Shown one piece after another: positions 21,757 through 27,751 of a DNA stretch of 64,000 bases. The first letter of the stretch is position 1. The number at the start of each line of letters is the position of its first letter. The position numbers and the translations under genes were made by a program. The stretch lies in the NCBI RefSeq assembly GCF_018736065.1, contig NZ_CP076128.1, positions 310,001 through 374,000 of the forward strand, written 5' to 3'. The notes under the pieces were generated by a model. That model was not told the origin of the DNA and searched no databases. It worked only from the letters and a program-made list of their open reading frames with translations. Source of the stretch: Flammeovirga kamogawensis (lineage in GTDB: Bacteria > Bacteroidota > Bacteroidia > Cytophagales > Flammeovirgaceae).

Positions 21757-21886
21757 TTTAAATGTTTTTTCAAAAATACTACAAAAATTACTATTCCGTT
21801 AATACGCTATAGGATAATTTTAATAAATAATTGTATATTGCATAGCGTAAAATAATTATTAATTGTTTTTTATTATCAATAATATC

Positions 21887-22249
21887 ATGGTTAAGCCTGT
21901 GTATAACATAAAAGACCACGATTTACTATCATTACTACAAAAAACTTTACTATTCGAAGGCTTCGTTGCAGGGTATAGGTTTTATTCTGAAAACGATTTA
22001 GAATGGGAAGTGATGCGAAATAAATTGAATCTTGTTCGTTATTCAAATAATGAATTTGATGAAAATGCTGTTGCAGTTTTTGCAGGTGATAAGATGATCG
22101 GGTATGTTCCTAAACAAAGTAGTAAAACTATTGCTGATTGTTTAGATAAAGGAGAAGAGCTTTATACTGAATTAATACATGTTGATCCTGTAGCTAAAGA
22201 TCAAAAAAAAGTGCTCTTTAAAATTTGGCGTTTTAAAGAAGCACATTAA
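21887..22249 (+). CDS. Stand-alone HIRAN domain protein
   Basis: I chose ATG 21887 (120 residues); the longer frame uses a TTG at 21863. The HIRAN fold is recognisable: FVAGYRFYSENDLEWEVM near the start, LVRYSNNEFDENAVAVF (the family core, with D-E-N-A-V), and MIGYVPKQSSKTIADCLDKG with the IGYVP element. HIRAN domains bind free 3' ends or stalled forks (HLTF/Rad5) and occur as stand-alone small proteins in bacteria near DNA-processing genes. Its stop codon (22247-22249) abuts the stop of the opposite-strand type-ISP-like gene at 22250. Confidence 0.85.
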   Translation: MVKPVYNIKDHDLLSLLQKTLLFEGFVAGYRFYSENDLEWEVMRNKLNLVRYSNNEFDENAVAVFAGDKMIGYVPKQSSKTIADCLDKGEELYTELIHVDPVAKDQKKVLFKIWRFKEAH

Positions 22250-24736
22250 TTATTTTTTTCTTCGTTTTAGTCTAACAGTTGGTCCATTGTGATCAAATAA
22301 CGATTCTGGTAGACATTCATTAATTTTAGCATACGATTCAGCTTGTAATTCAATATTTTTTGCTAACTCAATGCAATTAATTTTAGAAACTTTATCGCTA
22401 AAGTATTTCTGCAATGCTTTATTAAGGGGTTTTCGTTCTTTAAATTGATGTATAATTAAATCAAAAATTGTACTTTTCCCCCAAGTGTTTTTAGTAAATC
22501 CTTTTGGTGTATTTATGGATTGAGTTGAATTAATCTTATGATTTAATTCCTCATCGTTCTCTATAGTATCTCCTTCTATTACATTAACGTGAGAAGTTGA
22601 ATTATTAGTTTTTAATGAAGCATTAAAACATTCTTTACCTATTTTAGCCCATTTCCAAAAATCATTTAATAATGGAATTCTAGGAGGGAGAGCAATTAGT
22701 TCTTTCTCGTAATCAGTTTTATAAAGAGGATGTGATATAATTGCAAAAGTGTAGTAGAAAATATTTTCTTTTGTAAGAAGAGCTTCTTTATATTCTCTTT
22801 CAATTTTCACTTTCTCAATTGTATTGATTTTTTCAGATATACGATGAACAGCAGAAGTGATATCAGAAACTAATTGTTTTTTTTGAGGCATGCTTTTGTA
22901 TAACTGCATCATTTTGGTAACTAATTGATTAGTTGCAGTAACTACTTTTTCTAATGGTGTTTCTTCTTCCTCAGTATAATTAAAAAGAATTTTAGTGTAT
23001 TTGTCTAAAACTGGTAAACGAGATGTGTGCCTAGATATTTGCTCTAAATTAGGGATTAAAATATCTATAATAGATGATACAGTATTTGCTTTACCTACTT
23101 CTGGAAGACGAGGTAAGTAATATTGTCTAAATCGGTTAAGAGCCCAGTCACTTATATTTTCAGAAGATGAACCATCTTCTTTATATATTTGAAGTGGCAA
23201 AATGGTATTTCTTTGTTTTCTTTCAAAGAAATCAGAAAGTATTGGGTAAACACAAGGGATGTTCTCAAAACCATATTCTTGACTCGCAGATAAAACCAAA
23301 GATGGATTTTCTTTATTAAAACCCATAAGGTGGCTATTTTCCCAAGTAGACGTATCCAATTCTGAAGCGTAAATCCATTTTTTTGTGAATGGTTTTACAT
23401 AGGCACGAATGATTTTAGATTCGTCAAATTTAGATAGTTGATCGTCTAATTTAAGCGTACCACTTTTTTTCTGGCTTTTTTCGAAAACTTTAAGTTTATC
23501 TTTTAATTGTTGTTTGTTAAAATCGGTAAACCAGGTTTTGTTTTTCAGCTGAATTGGAGCAACAGACTGATTAAATATACTTTTCTCTTTCTGGCTATAT
23601 AAACAAAGAAATTTACCATATTCTTCAGAAGACAACGTAATCCAGTCATCAGAATCATTACTTATAGGAGAGAAATCTTCTAAATAGCTAGGAGCATAAT
23701 AAACACCTTCATGTTCATTGTCTTTGCTAAATATAAAGCAGTAAATAATTTGATTTGAATACAGGTGAGCTTGAATATAAACTCTATTACAAATCGATTT
23801 AGCTTGTTGTCTCCATTGTTTAAATTCTGGTGCAGCTGCTAAAGAATGATCTCCTCTAATAACTAATATCCCATTATTACCAAGTCGTTCTCTAGCCCAT
23901 AATAACCAATATGAAACTGGATTTCTTTTTTGGTCAGAAGAAAACACTTTTTTTACTCTACTTGTCCATTCTTTGTGAGCAGTTCTATTCCCTAATGACA
24001 TCTGTTGGATTGTGCCAAAAACAATCTGAACAGGGTCACGGTTTAGGTTGGTTAATTTGTTTAAATTCGAGTCTTCTTCAAGGAAATTTAAATGTTTTTG
24101 ACCTTGAGGCATAATATCAACAAAGCTTAAACTATTTCCGAAAGAACGGTTACTTTCTGTGGCATTAACTGTACTCCAATAGTAAACCAATAAATCGTAG
24201 CAAACTAGAGTATTTGATTTTGCCTCAATATCTAAAAAAGGAGGTAATGTAAAAGAAGGGTATAGGTATTGAGCATCTTTTCCAGAATTATTTAGGTGTT
24301 TTCTCATTAAAGATTTAAACATTCCTAAAAAATAATTTGGCAAAGGTTCTCCCTCTTCTCTACCCATTAATTGAGTAAAAAGCTCCTCTTTATTTTGTCC
24401 ATTTTGAAGTAAAACATCAATTGTTGTTTTTAATTGATTTTGTGCATCATTGAGTAATTCTTTATCAGAAAACTGCTCTATAATTTCTTCAAAAAGTATA
24501 TATATATAATCAATGAATACAGGTTGTAAAGCTTTCTCATCTTTTAAAGAAAAAAGAATTTGCTTACTTACAATATGCTCACTGATCAATCTTAATAAGT
24601 CATCTATATTAAATGTAGAAAAGAAAGACTTTTTAAAAGCCTTGATCATTTCTTTTCCATTTTCTTGTGCTTCAGCTTTGTAATTACCTGCAAATAATAA
24701 TTGTTGCTGTAAGCCTTGAATAGCTTCTCCTATCAA
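22250..24736 (-). CDS. Divergent type ISP restriction-modification-like protein (MTase-like plus specificity domain)
   Basis: The 828-residue protein resembles the C-terminal two thirds of type ISP (LlaBIII-type) enzymes, which fuse nuclease, helicase, N6-adenine methyltransferase and target-recognition parts. The MTase-like region (about 150-340) includes VSYWLLWARERLGNNGILVI and the following strand-helix pattern. Where active enzymes have NPPY after VIxGN, this protein reads PVQIVFGTIQQMSLGN, so catalytic motif IV appears lost. The specificity-like part is recognisable around IIRAYVKPFTKKWIYASELD (about 435-455), PLQIYKED, and KENIFYYTFAIISHPLYKTD with PPRIPLLNDFWKWAKIGKE. No nuclease or helicase is present. 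The start is uncertain: TTG at 24736 is the best in-frame choice, preceded by an open frame lacking ATG. Confidence 0.65.
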   Translation of the reverse strand: MIGEAIQGLQQQLLFAGNYKAEAQENGKEMIKAFKKSFFSTFNIDDLLRLISEHIVSKQILFSLKDEKALQPVFIDYIYILFEEIIEQFSDKELLNDAQNQLKTTIDVLLQNGQNKEELFTQLMGREEGEPLPNYFLGMFKSLMRKHLNNSGKDAQYLYPSFTLPPFLDIEAKSNTLVCYDLLVYYWSTVNATESNRSFGNSLSFVDIMPQGQKHLNFLEEDSNLNKLTNLNRDPVQIVFGTIQQMSLGNRTAHKEWTSRVKKVFSSDQKRNPVSYWLLWARERLGNNGILVIRGDHSLAAAPEFKQWRQQAKSICNRVYIQAHLYSNQIIYCFIFSKDNEHEGVYYAPSYLEDFSPISNDSDDWITLSSEEYGKFLCLYSQKEKSIFNQSVAPIQLKNKTWFTDFNKQQLKDKLKVFEKSQKKSGTLKLDDQLSKFDESKIIRAYVKPFTKKWIYASELDTSTWENSHLMGFNKENPSLVLSASQEYGFENIPCVYPILSDFFERKQRNTILPLQIYKEDGSSSENISDWALNRFRQYYLPRLPEVGKANTVSSIIDILIPNLEQISRHTSRLPVLDKYTKILFNYTEEEETPLEKVVTATNQLVTKMMQLYKSMPQKKQLVSDITSAVHRISEKINTIEKVKIEREYKEALLTKENIFYYTFAIISHPLYKTDYEKELIALPPRIPLLNDFWKWAKIGKECFNASLKTNNSTSHVNVIEGDTIENDEELNHKINSTQSINTPKGFTKNTWGKSTIFDLIIHQFKERKPLNKALQKYFSDKVSKINCIELAKNIELQAESYAKINECLPESLFDHNGPTVRLKRRKK

Positions 24737-24940
24737 ACTATTTATGTCTTTTTTTATACATTCTACTAATAGATTATCAATTGTTTTCTGCTGTGTATTT
24801 TGATTTTATACATTACAAAAGAAATTCATGTTAGATAATCATTATTGTTCTAAATCCGATTAGTATATTCGCTTCTAAATCAGATTTAAGACAAACGTCG
24901 TAAAATTAATAGTAGTTCTCGTCCTTTGGACACAAAAATT

Positions 24941-27751
24941 ATGAAAAAATTATTTCTGCTTGATGGTATGGCATTGATTTTTCGTGCCCACTTTGCTTTA
25001 ATACGTAATCCACGTATCAATTCTAAAGGAGTGAATACAAGTGCACCTATGGGCTTTGTAAACTCTCTATTAGAAATTCTTAAAAAGCAGAATCCTACTC
25101 ATATAGCTGTATCTTTTGATTTACCTGCTCCAACATTCCGACATAAAATGTTTAGTGAATACAAGGCAAATAGACAAGAGACTCCTGAGGATATATCAAT
25201 AGCAATTCCAATAGTGAAAAAAATTGTAGATGCTTTTAATATTCCTAGAATTGAGATGGAAGGATATGAAGCAGATGATGTTATTGGAACATTAGCTAAA
25301 GTAGCATCTAAAAAGGGTTTTCAGACATATATGATGACACCTGATAAGGATTACGCTCAATTAGTGGATGAAAATACTTTCTTATACCGTCCTTCTACGA
25401 AAGGAGGAATTGAAATTTTAGGCGTCAATGAAGTTTTAGAGAAGTTTGATTTAGACCGTATTGATCAAGTAATTGATTTGCTAGGTTTACAAGGTGATGC
25501 CGTTGATAATATTCCTGGTGTACCTGGGGTGGGACCAAAAACTGCTTGCAAGTTATTAAAACAATATAGTACAGTAGAAGGTATTATTGAACATTCTGAC
25601 GAACTAAAAGGCAAACTTAAAGAACGTGTTCAAGGTAATGTTGAGCAAGCATTAATGTCTAAAGAGTTAGCCACTATTAAGATAGATGTTCCTGTTGAGT
25701 TTAATGAACAAGATTTACTTATTTCTGAGCCAAATAAAGAGGAATTAATAAAAATATTTACTGAATTAGAATTTAAAACTTTACTTCAGAGAGTTTTTCC
25801 AGGAGAAAAGAAAGCCGTAACGCCAAAGAAATCAATAAAAGCAGGTGAACAAGCTTCTTTATTCGGAGGAAGTGCTTCAAGTGCTACTACTTCAACAGCT
25901 TCAGAACCTGAAGACGTTGTAGAAGAAGAGATAATAATTGAAAAATCTACATTTGCTACTGTAGATAAAAATTATAGATTGGTAGATTCTCCGGAAAGAT
26001 ACGAAGAGTTAGTTAGTTATTTAAGTAAACAAAAAGAGTTTGCTTTTGATACTGAAACAACTTCTTTAGATGCTTTGGAAGCTGAAGTTGTAGGGATGTC
26101 GTTTAGTGCAGCCAAGGACGAAGCATACTATGTGCCTGTTCCACTAGATAAAAAGCAAGCAGATATTATATTTACTTATTTTAAGCCTCTTTTTGCAAAT
26201 CAAGAAATACTTAAAATAGGTCAGAATTTAAAATATGATTTACAGGTACTTGAGACTGCTAATGTTGATGTAAAAGGCCCTTTCTTCGATACCATGCTGG
26301 CACATTATCTATTAGAGCCAGATAAACGACATGGTATGGATGCGATTTCGGAAGTTTACTTAAATTATATACCTGTTTCAATAGAGACTATTTTAGGTAA
26401 AAAAGGAAAGAAGCAAAAAAACATGAAAGATATGTCTGTTCAAGAAGTATATGAATATGCTTGTGAAGATGCAGATGTAACACTTCAATTGAGAGAAGTT
26501 TTTGAACCACTCTTAAAAAATAAAGGACTTGATAAATTGTTCACTAATCTAGAAATGCCTTTAATGGAAACATTAAAAGATATGGAAAGAGAAGGGGTGA
26601 ATTTAGATGTAGAATCTTTAGAGAAGTATTCTATTGAATTAGCAAGTTCTGTGGAACAATTAGAAAAGGAAATCTATCTTTTAGCGGGTGAAGAGTTTAC
26701 AATTTCTTCTCCGAAGCAGCTAGGAATAGTTCTTTTTGAAAAAATGAAGCTTGTTGAAAAGCCTAAAAAGACAAAAACAGGACAGTACGCAACAGGTGAA
26801 GAAGTATTGCAAGGTTTAAGAAACCATGAAATAGTAGGTAAGATCTTAGATTTCCGTCAATTAAATAAATTGAAAAGTACTTATGTAGATGCACTTCCTA
26901 AGCTGATTAAATCAGATGGAAGAGTGCATACAACGTATAATCAAGCAATTGCCGCAACAGGACGTTTATCATCTACAGATCCTAACTTGCAGAATATTCC
27001 AATTAAAACATCAAGAGGTAGAGAAATTAGAAAAGCATTTGTCGCTAGAAATAACGATTATACTTTTGTTGCTGCCGATTATTCTCAAGTTGAATTAAGA
27101 ATTATGGCTGCTTTTAGTGGTGATAAAGAGATGATTGATGCTTTTAAAAATGGAAGAGATATTCATACAGCAACTGCAGCTAAAGTATTTAAAGTTGCAG
27201 AAAGTGATGTAGATTCAGAAATGCGTAGAAAAGCTAAAACTGCCAATTTTGGTATTATCTATGGTGTATCTGCTTTCGGGTTATCTCAACAGCTTAATAT
27301 ACCAAGAAGTGAAGCAAAAGCATTAATTGATGCATATTGGGAAGAATTTCCATCTGTCAAAAAGTATATGGATGATGTGATAGGAAAAGCAAGAGACAAT
27401 GAATATGTAGAAACATTAATGGGTAGAAGAAGGTATCTAAGAGATATTAATTCTAGAAACTTTACTGTACGTGGTATGGCCGAAAGAAATGCTATCAATG
27501 CTCCAATTCAAGGTACTGCTGCAGATATTATCAAAAAAGCAATGATTGAGATTCAAGCTTGGATGAAATTGGAAGGTTTAAAATCTAAAATGATTTTGCA
27601 AGTTCATGATGAATTAATTTTTGATGTTTATAATGAAGAATTAGATCTTCTTAAAGCAAAAGTTAAAGAATTAATGGAGGGTGCTGATGATATTGGAGTT
27701 CCTTTAGAAGTAGAAATAGGCGAAGGTAATAATTGGCTTGAAGCACACTGA
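24941..27751 (+). CDS. polA: DNA polymerase I
   Basis: PolA fills gaps in Okazaki-fragment maturation and repair. I set the start at ATG 24941 (936 residues); an upstream TTG adds five residues. All three activities look intact: 5'-3' exonuclease (FDLPAPTFRH, GYEADDVIGTLA near 100-112, GVPGVGPKTA), 3'-5' exonuclease (DTETTSLDA near 369 and YACEDADVTLQL), and polymerase motif A (DYSQVELRIMAAFSGD near 712), motif B (RRKAKTANFGIIYG) and motif C (LQVHDELIFDV near 887). A prenyltransferase gene follows eight bases after its stop, so the two may be co-transcribed. Confidence 0.97.
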   Translation: MKKLFLLDGMALIFRAHFALIRNPRINSKGVNTSAPMGFVNSLLEILKKQNPTHIAVSFDLPAPTFRHKMFSEYKANRQETPEDISIAIPIVKKIVDAFNIPRIEMEGYEADDVIGTLAKVASKKGFQTYMMTPDKDYAQLVDENTFLYRPSTKGGIEILGVNEVLEKFDLDRIDQVIDLLGLQGDAVDNIPGVPGVGPKTACKLLKQYSTVEGIIEHSDELKGKLKERVQGNVEQALMSKELATIKIDVPVEFNEQDLLISEPNKEELIKIFTELEFKTLLQRVFPGEKKAVTPKKSIKAGEQASLFGGSASSATTSTASEPEDVVEEEIIIEKSTFATVDKNYRLVDSPERYEELVSYLSKQKEFAFDTETTSLDALEAEVVGMSFSAAKDEAYYVPVPLDKKQADIIFTYFKPLFANQEILKIGQNLKYDLQVLETANVDVKGPFFDTMLAHYLLEPDKRHGMDAISEVYLNYIPVSIETILGKKGKKQKNMKDMSVQEVYEYACEDADVTLQLREVFEPLLKNKGLDKLFTNLEMPLMETLKDMEREGVNLDVESLEKYSIELASSVEQLEKEIYLLAGEEFTISSPKQLGIVLFEKMKLVEKPKKTKTGQYATGEEVLQGLRNHEIVGKILDFRQLNKLKSTYVDALPKLIKSDGRVHTTYNQAIAATGRLSSTDPNLQNIPIKTSRGREIRKAFVARNNDYTFVAADYSQVELRIMAAFSGDKEMIDAFKNGRDIHTATAAKVFKVAESDVDSEMRRKAKTANFGIIYGVSAFGLSQQLNIPRSEAKALIDAYWEEFPSVKKYMDDVIGKARDNEYVETLMGRRRYLRDINSRNFTVRGMAERNAINAPIQGTAADIIKKAMIEIQAWMKLEGLKSKMILQVHDELIFDVYNEELDLLKAKVKELMEGADDIGVPLEVEIGEGNNWLEAH

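Follow-up and report, generated by a model that had tools for sequence, protein, structure and literature searches.

A Predicted Pseudo-Restriction-Modification Protein Related to DrdV and Type ISP Enzymes Is Retained in Flammeovirga

Introduction

Genes for restriction-modification typically move between genomes and have a patchy distribution. The single-chain enzyme DrdV (7lo5/7lvv, 1029 amino acids) carries an N-terminal nuclease, PD...ExK being the nuclease residues of DrdV-type type IIG enzymes, and the type ISP enzymes LlaGI and LlaBIII (5ffj, 4xqk) have a nuclease and a helicase together with a methylase, a target recognition domain (TRD) core and a guide. The METTL14-type pseudo-methyltransferase keeps the methylase fold without catalysis and is paired with a related catalytic sister. 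Here we describe a gene of Flammeovirga kamogawensis, located at 22250..24736 on the minus strand of a 64,000-nucleotide stretch (NZ_CP076128.1, positions 310,001 to 374,000, referred to below as the window), whose 828-residue product is related to DrdV, LlaGI and LlaBIII but lacks their catalytic motifs.

The helicase-free methylase-TRD layout is common to DrdV and the window protein, and DrdV was the best match both of a profile of motif-dead relatives and of the window model; however, motif I, NPPY and the long loop III of DrdV are all missing from the window protein, which has an additional helical insertion of about 107 residues. The PD...ExK nuclease residues are also absent from it. With LlaGI and LlaBIII it has the methylase, the TRD core and the guide in common, but it is without nuclease, helicase and catalytic motifs, and the loop III and guide phosphate contacts are lost in its genus. 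Unlike METTL14 with its related sister partner, the window protein is encoded in a genome in which no second Type_ISP_C gene was found. Since it shows the catalytic features of neither type ISP nor type IIG enzymes, it was not filed as a member of either, and is predicted to represent a derived pseudo-enzyme branch of the type ISP/type IIG kind. A literature search, with preprints and most subscription papers outside its scope, found no account of a motif-dead type ISP family, and a search for Flammeovirga together with restriction-modification found nothing.

Results and Discussion

Gene, Reading Frame and Family Assignment

The labels G, g and f, followed by a number, denote the sampled genomes, genera and families, and L the fetched loci; f1 is the family of the window gene. 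The terms NPPY-bearing and motif-dead denote classes called by sequence alone. The parts of the protein are given below, where invariance is the share of invariant residues within the genus (15 regions examined; 39% for the whole protein).

22250..24736, minus strand: motif-dead type ISP/type IIG-like protein (putative pseudo-restriction-modification protein), 828 residues, TTG start
24362..24736, minus strand: N-terminal all-helical coupler-like part, residues 1-125, from the model, with no nuclease or helicase ahead of it
24167..24361, minus strand: residues 126-190, 72% invariant, once the motif X-I-II region, with PSFTLPPF now in place of motif I
23969..24061, minus strand: residues 226-256, 84% invariant, once the motif IV region, with FGTIQQ now in place of GNPPY
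23762..23914, minus strand: motif V-VI-like core, residues 275-325, YWLLWARERLGNNGILVIRGD, 67% invariant
23102..23581, minus strand: equivalent of the TRD core and jaw (residues 386-545), with loop positions that we mapped from PMC4872093
22781..23101, minus strand: helical insertion of about 107 residues, residues 546-652, between TRD core and guide, 23% invariant
22253..22780, minus strand: guide equivalent and tail, residues 653-828, basic tail LKRRKK

The frame is open throughout, without internal stop codons, and the identical TTG start codon was found in 9/9 genus orthologues, the window copy counted. The strings YWLLWARERLGNNGILVI, KPFTKKWIYA, ENIFYYTFAIISHPLYKTD and PPRIPL, from which a sequence-only reading of this DNA had deduced a type ISP relationship, as well as FGTIQQ, were all located in the protein. 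That relationship was borne out by a Pfam match to Type_ISP_C (PF18135) with E=4.2e-26 (92.3 bits; cut-off, 25.9), the strongest stretch of which, residues 636-716, lies around the guide start. The protein matched neither N6_Mtase nor Eco57I up to E=1, gave no match to the ISP_coupler model and no nuclease or helicase family in Pfam; the NPPY-bearing relative L045 matched Type_ISP_C, ISP_coupler, N6_Mtase and Eco57I. When only 12 motif-dead members were used to build a profile, it matched DrdV (1.3e-86), LlaGI (1e-47) and LlaBIII (1.2e-41) among the PDB entries, its best stretch covering DrdV 149-839. The homology of the methylase and TRD to the type ISP/single-chain restriction-modification family is secure. 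PADLOC REase_MTase_IIG models matched residues 434-709 at 2.8e-13, a likeness confined to the TRD part, the window protein being without nuclease or methylase motif; annotators might take such genes for restriction-modification enzymes from the specificity domain alone.

The motif-dead profile aligned to DrdV from chain residue 149, the N-terminus of the model is helical, and the alignment starts at the helical region preceding the methylase, which leaves no residues for an N-terminal Mrr-type nuclease. For a superfamily 2 (SF2) helicase-like ATPase there was neither a Pfam match nor room in the 828 residues. Both absences had been claimed in the sequence-only reading, which was correct on this point.

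The AlphaFold model of the window protein was obtained from 19 sequences (mean predicted local distance difference test score, pLDDT, 70; predicted template modelling score, pTM, 0.55). In a Foldseek search the closest PDB structures were DrdV, LlaGI and LlaBIII, with E from 2.5e-19 to 9e-16, query template modelling scores (TMq) of 0.40-0.45 and a root-mean-square deviation of about 12, the best being DrdV 7lo5 (2.5e-19, TMq 0.45); LlaBIII, with which a comparison had been proposed, was thus one of the three nearest matches. The model of the Flexithrix relative (1018 residues) likewise had DrdV as best match (1.1e-41, TM 0.59), followed by LlaGI and LlaBIII. Since the input alignment for AlphaFold included NPPY-bearing relatives, the fold matches and the sequence homology are not independent lines of evidence.

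Loss of the Catalytic Motifs

The motif alignment contained 41 rows, 15 NPPY-bearing and 26 without NPPY, the window protein being among the 26. YTP, GTGT[FY] and NE were present in 15/15 NPPY-bearing rows, and at the positions of YTP, GTGT[FY], NE and NPPY the window protein has PLP, TLPPF, CYD and GTIQQ, respectively. FGTIQQ occupies the position of GNPPY, as had been read from the window alone, and TLPPF stands at motif I. Since this wider alignment shows replaced residues at motifs I and IV, neither motif was rescued. Loop III, the base-flipping loop, which comes right after the motif V-VI-like core, was reduced to 5 residues in the window protein and 5 other genus rows, as compared with 20-25 residues in the 15 NPPY-bearing rows. 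YTP, GTGTF, NE, RDEW and GNR were also missing from the same genus rows, as were the arginine and the phenylalanine of loop III, and within the genus neither the guide arginine nor the one in the RDEW segment is kept.

As described in the LlaGI study (PMC4872093), loop III of this enzyme includes R1119, R1138 and F1133, two residues filling the flipped-base cavity and the phenylalanine stacking on the flipped adenine. The positions of these residues on the window protein are as we infer them from the alignment. All the S-adenosylmethionine (SAM), catalytic and base-flipping elements that could be mapped are, as judged from sequence, lost in the window gene.

Conservation within the Genus, Retention and Selection

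Invariance was highest in the former active-site region, residues 235-252 inside the former motif IV region reaching 94%. Values of 60% and 59% were obtained for residues 326-390 and 517-545, respectively, and 12% for the jaw equivalent. The TRD loop regions IV, V and VI were 43%, 26% and 15% invariant; the guide (653-705) was 51% invariant and the tail (706-828, the last 123 residues) 15%. The isoelectric point (pI) of the window protein is 8.3, and over the 19 proteins computed it ranged from 5.8 to 9.2, with overlap between motif-dead and NPPY-bearing proteins.

The full-length gene was present in 9/9 genus genomes, the 8 others at 56-90% identity, and in 16/18 family genomes, of which 2/16 carrying genomes had a completeness below 90%; the two smallest genomes of the family (2.8 and 3.0 Mb) lack it. 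Homologues were also found in Flammeovirga aprica, F. pacifica and Flexithrix dorotheae. It was the sole Type_ISP_C gene found in each carrying genome, 27/27 PF18135 matches among those listed falling in the same gene. No internal stop was found in 16/16 family matches. The ratio of nonsynonymous to synonymous substitution rates (dN/dS) was calculated by the NG86 method for five species pairs (three f1 pairs, g28 and the second g28 gene). The f1 pairs gave 0.058 (dS 0.26), 0.063 (dS 0.91) and 0.23 (dS 1.27, genus g4), the g28 pair 0.074 (rank 5/8) and the second g28 gene 0.177 (rank 11/12). The gene is under purifying selection.

A Non-Catalytic Binding Protein as the Favoured Explanation

The explanation that we favour, with a probability of roughly 0.6, is that the window protein descends from a helicase-free single-chain DrdV/type ISP restriction-modification enzyme and has been domesticated into a non-catalytic protein that binds via the old catalytic cleft. 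The retained gene very probably has a new, non-enzymatic job. The enzyme would have been domesticated into a pseudo-restriction-modification protein working by binding rather than catalysis, and the old SAM/flipped-adenine face would have been rebuilt to become what is now the most constrained part, for which reason that face is probably the site at which a new partner or ligand is held. As a scaffold, the TRD/guide half would be retained, perhaps with weak or non-specific DNA contact, which the moderate conservation of the guide (653-705) still allows. That the protein reads a fixed DNA site directly appears less likely in the genus of the window, although the g28 branch may still read DNA. 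A methylase-TRD scaffold without catalytic motifs, retained as one copy in 16/18 family genomes and subject to purifying selection, would stand as a clear example of a defence enzyme that became a cellular protein.

Several observations weigh against this explanation. The motif-dead rows outside the genus are not uniform: a long loop III is found in the L049 group together with RDEW and GVRS, whereas L112 retains TP and NE, and L084 the loop III arginine. The methylase region was poorly modelled, with 10-residue pLDDT blocks of 41-73 over residues 121-260, and with such a low-confidence half the pocket geometry of the window protein is not secure. In a shift control, whose figures, like the conservation contrast itself, are uncorrected for the 15 regions examined, 1.9% of the equal-length windows reached the 84% of residues 226-256 and 4.5% the 72% of residues 126-190, and the 67% of residues 275-325 was unremarkable, being reached by 15% of windows. 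Active type ISP enzymes likewise conserve the methylase half over the TRD, as stated in PMC4872093; the difference is that their conserved methylase residues include catalytic ones and those of the window genus do not. The gene also evolves faster than most of its neighbours, with dN/dS ranks of 14/15 and 13/14 in the genus and 7/7 in g4, and in two g8 genomes it is 27% identical as compared with 43-98% in the syntenic neighbours. Finally, no neighbour family was common to all 14 lineages compared, a 40-row quick tree needed 2 changes and not 1 between the NPPY-bearing and motif-dead classes, and long branches may pull the motif-dead rows together.

A sequence-specific DNA-binding protein, in which the TRD and guide clamp the target and the dead methylase half aids the grip, as a repressor, roadblock or sensor would, is in keeping with the TRD and guide being still recognisable, with the best Pfam stretch at the guide start, with the 51% and 43% invariance of the guide and the loop IV region, with the pI and the basic tail (although the pI ranges of the two classes overlap), and with the retention of RDEW, GVRS and a long loop III in the g28 branch (L049 and relatives). 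However, a reader of a fixed site would be expected to keep loops V and VI, loop III and the arginines, so their state in the genus (26% and 15% invariance, near deletion, and loss at the RDEW position and in the guide, respectively) counts against such a protein, which we consider unlikely. For the same reasons, together with the 5-residue loop III and the pseudo-active-site region being the best conserved, the target-recognising descendant that had been proposed as the principal interpretation of this gene was not upheld. A defence-related sensor or decoy, whose restriction-enzyme shape would bind phage products such as DNA-mimic inhibitors, would explain the fast divergence relative to the neighbours, and is consistent with the BrxX/PglX-type methylases, some of them Ocr-bound, that appear far down the Foldseek list of the Flexithrix model (TM 0.24-0.28), and with PADLOC matches of type IIG models to the gene and of the candidate-defence model PDC-M03B to the neighbouring HIRAN gene (4.4e-12). 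These PADLOC matches, however, reflect the TRD and HIRAN domains only, and synteny with polA and further genes in 9/9 genus loci and one copy in 16/18 family genomes are unlike mobile defence genes, so this role is held to be distinctly improbable.

Slow decay of a functionless remnant would agree with catalytic motifs that are gone and that differ between genera, and with the splitting of the L172 copy in two frames, but the lack of internal stops in 16/16 family matches, the dN/dS of 0.06-0.23 in the three f1 pairs and the retention of the gene by 8/8 other genus genomes at 56-90% identity mean that selection has already largely refuted a pseudogene, the chances of which are slight. A still-active methyltransferase with unusual motifs, or a dead half paired with an active methylase, is the hardest to credit: the methylase region is recognisable, and Eco57I-model matches elsewhere in 17/18 family genomes, five of them in the window's own genome (G000), would make a separate partner methylase possible, but motifs X, I, II and IV and the phenylalanine loop have been replaced or deleted together, and the genome has no second Type_ISP_C gene.

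Wider Family and Origin of the Motif-Dead Proteins

Among the fetched loci, to which the assignment to the motif-dead or NPPY-bearing class was limited in the order survey, motif-dead relatives were found in the further Cytophagales families f2, f4, f15 (L094, L169), f19 (L082) and f22 (L083), and one (L112) came from a metagenome-assembled genome labelled Bacteroidetes. Family f4 has a relative of about 535 residues in three g11 genomes, in addition to L084, and f2 has two different motif-dead genes, of which the L049 type was found in 7 genomes and the L085 type in 4, with one further copy being split. The second, more distant g28 relative (L085, L087, L089, L091; 972-990 residues) occurs in genomes in which the L049-type gene is also present, and at L172:3078-5835 (g28) it is split in two frames of 196 and 683 residues, by sequencing error or real decay.

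The insertion-plus-guide profile A3 matched 92/390 genomes in the order survey, most of the matches listed being in the guide part only, and 13/395 genomes at 1e-12 in the class survey, where the insertion was covered by the window's own match only. Six NPPY-bearing proteins (L162-L167, 1028-1141 residues) also gave weak alignments with A3 (32-36 bits) that ran across the insertion, so an insertion-like segment is not exclusive to motif-dead forms, and the insertion was rejected as a mark of enzyme death.

In a 32-row tree, from which the motif and insertion columns were excluded and L084 (partial) and the long or distant L046, L047, L082, L085, L087, L089, L094 and L112 were omitted, one branch splits the motif-dead from the NPPY-bearing proteins (99/97; 100% of 200 bootstraps). 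A single loss of the catalytic motifs is the simplest reading, although it is unproved. The NPPY-bearing relatives from the same order in the tree are 982-1193 residues long, too short for a helicase beside the other parts, and DrdV (1029 residues) is the best structural match; loss of a helicase from the ancestor, which the sequence-only reading had implied, is thus not supported, and the ancestor was apparently a single-chain enzyme of the DrdV type, without a helicase.

We take the N-terminal domain of the NPPY-bearing relatives to be a nuclease from its PDG...WE[SA]K residues; for L045, Pfam named no nuclease. The complete layout survives in L083, although without the catalytic motifs: its residues 1-194 matched the N-terminal profile of the NPPY-bearing relatives with an hhalign probability of 98% over 184 columns, and its PDG and WESKD segments are replaced (EMSG; W--KS). 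The N-terminus of L112, also without the PDG and ESK residues, matched the same domain at 96%, and column-shuffled controls for both gave 0.2% or less. The match was 72.6% for L042 with L043 and 84.9% for L042, L043, L044 and L046 together; in L044 with L046 (2.4%) and in L085 (3.2%) no vestigial N-terminal domain was found by hhalign. The motif-dead relatives thus seem to preserve successive steps, an N-terminal domain without catalytic residues, then worn down, then gone, and this path is open to study. It is possible, and proposed here only tentatively, that one ancient domestication in part of the Cytophagales gave rise to a family with a core cellular task, possibly in replication or repair, in which the former SAM/adenine cleft would be the new site for a ligand or partner and the nuclease would have been shed stepwise, the g11 lineage being reduced to about 535 residues, directly upstream of ligA.

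Gene Neighbourhood

24926..27751, plus strand: polA, divergent neighbour, with genus-level synteny only
21863..22249, plus strand: stand-alone HIRAN-domain gene (Pfam), convergent, its stop adjoining that of the motif-dead gene

The flanking genes, HIRAN and DUF1684 at one end of the motif-dead gene and polA at its other end, were kept in the window and in 8/8 other genus loci, so the claim of conservation beside polA holds within the genus; beyond it the claim fails, a tblastn search of 7 family-level loci having found no window protein besides the homologue itself. Neither neighbour was retained as a functional partner. For polA there was no support past genus synteny, and HIRAN matches occurred in 3/8 family genera (g1, g3, g5), adjoining the motif-dead gene only in g1. 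A second HIRAN match lies elsewhere in each of the 9 genus genomes.

In g11 (L168, L170, L171) the 534-536-residue motif-dead relative is directly upstream of ligA on the same strand, with the longest frames overlapping, in 3/3 loci checked (ligase domains by Pfam for L168 and by eye for L170 and L171), and at L173:4508-5314 a fragment of the guide domain, lying at the end of its contig, is two genes from priA. The polA (genus), ligA (g11) and priA (L173) neighbours, noticed post hoc, give a weak hint of a replication/repair link.

Other neighbour contexts include bactofilin and LPG_synthase_TM (Pfam) and what we take, by eye from sequence starts, to be ExbB/ExbD-, RpoA-, RpoC- and dihydroorotase-like genes. 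The presumed dihydroorotase-like gene is near the L049-type gene in 6/7 g28 loci (L049, L086, L088, L090, L092 and L096; not seen in L093), and the presumed RpoC-like gene near the second g28 relative in L085 only. In g4 and g8 an LPG_synthase_TM-type membrane gene directly follows the motif-dead gene in L042, L044 and L046, with one small open reading frame between them in L043, and is itself followed in all four loci by what is presumably, by eye, an amidohydrolase-like gene; despite this kept neighbourhood, the identity of the motif-dead gene is 27-59% within each of the two genera.

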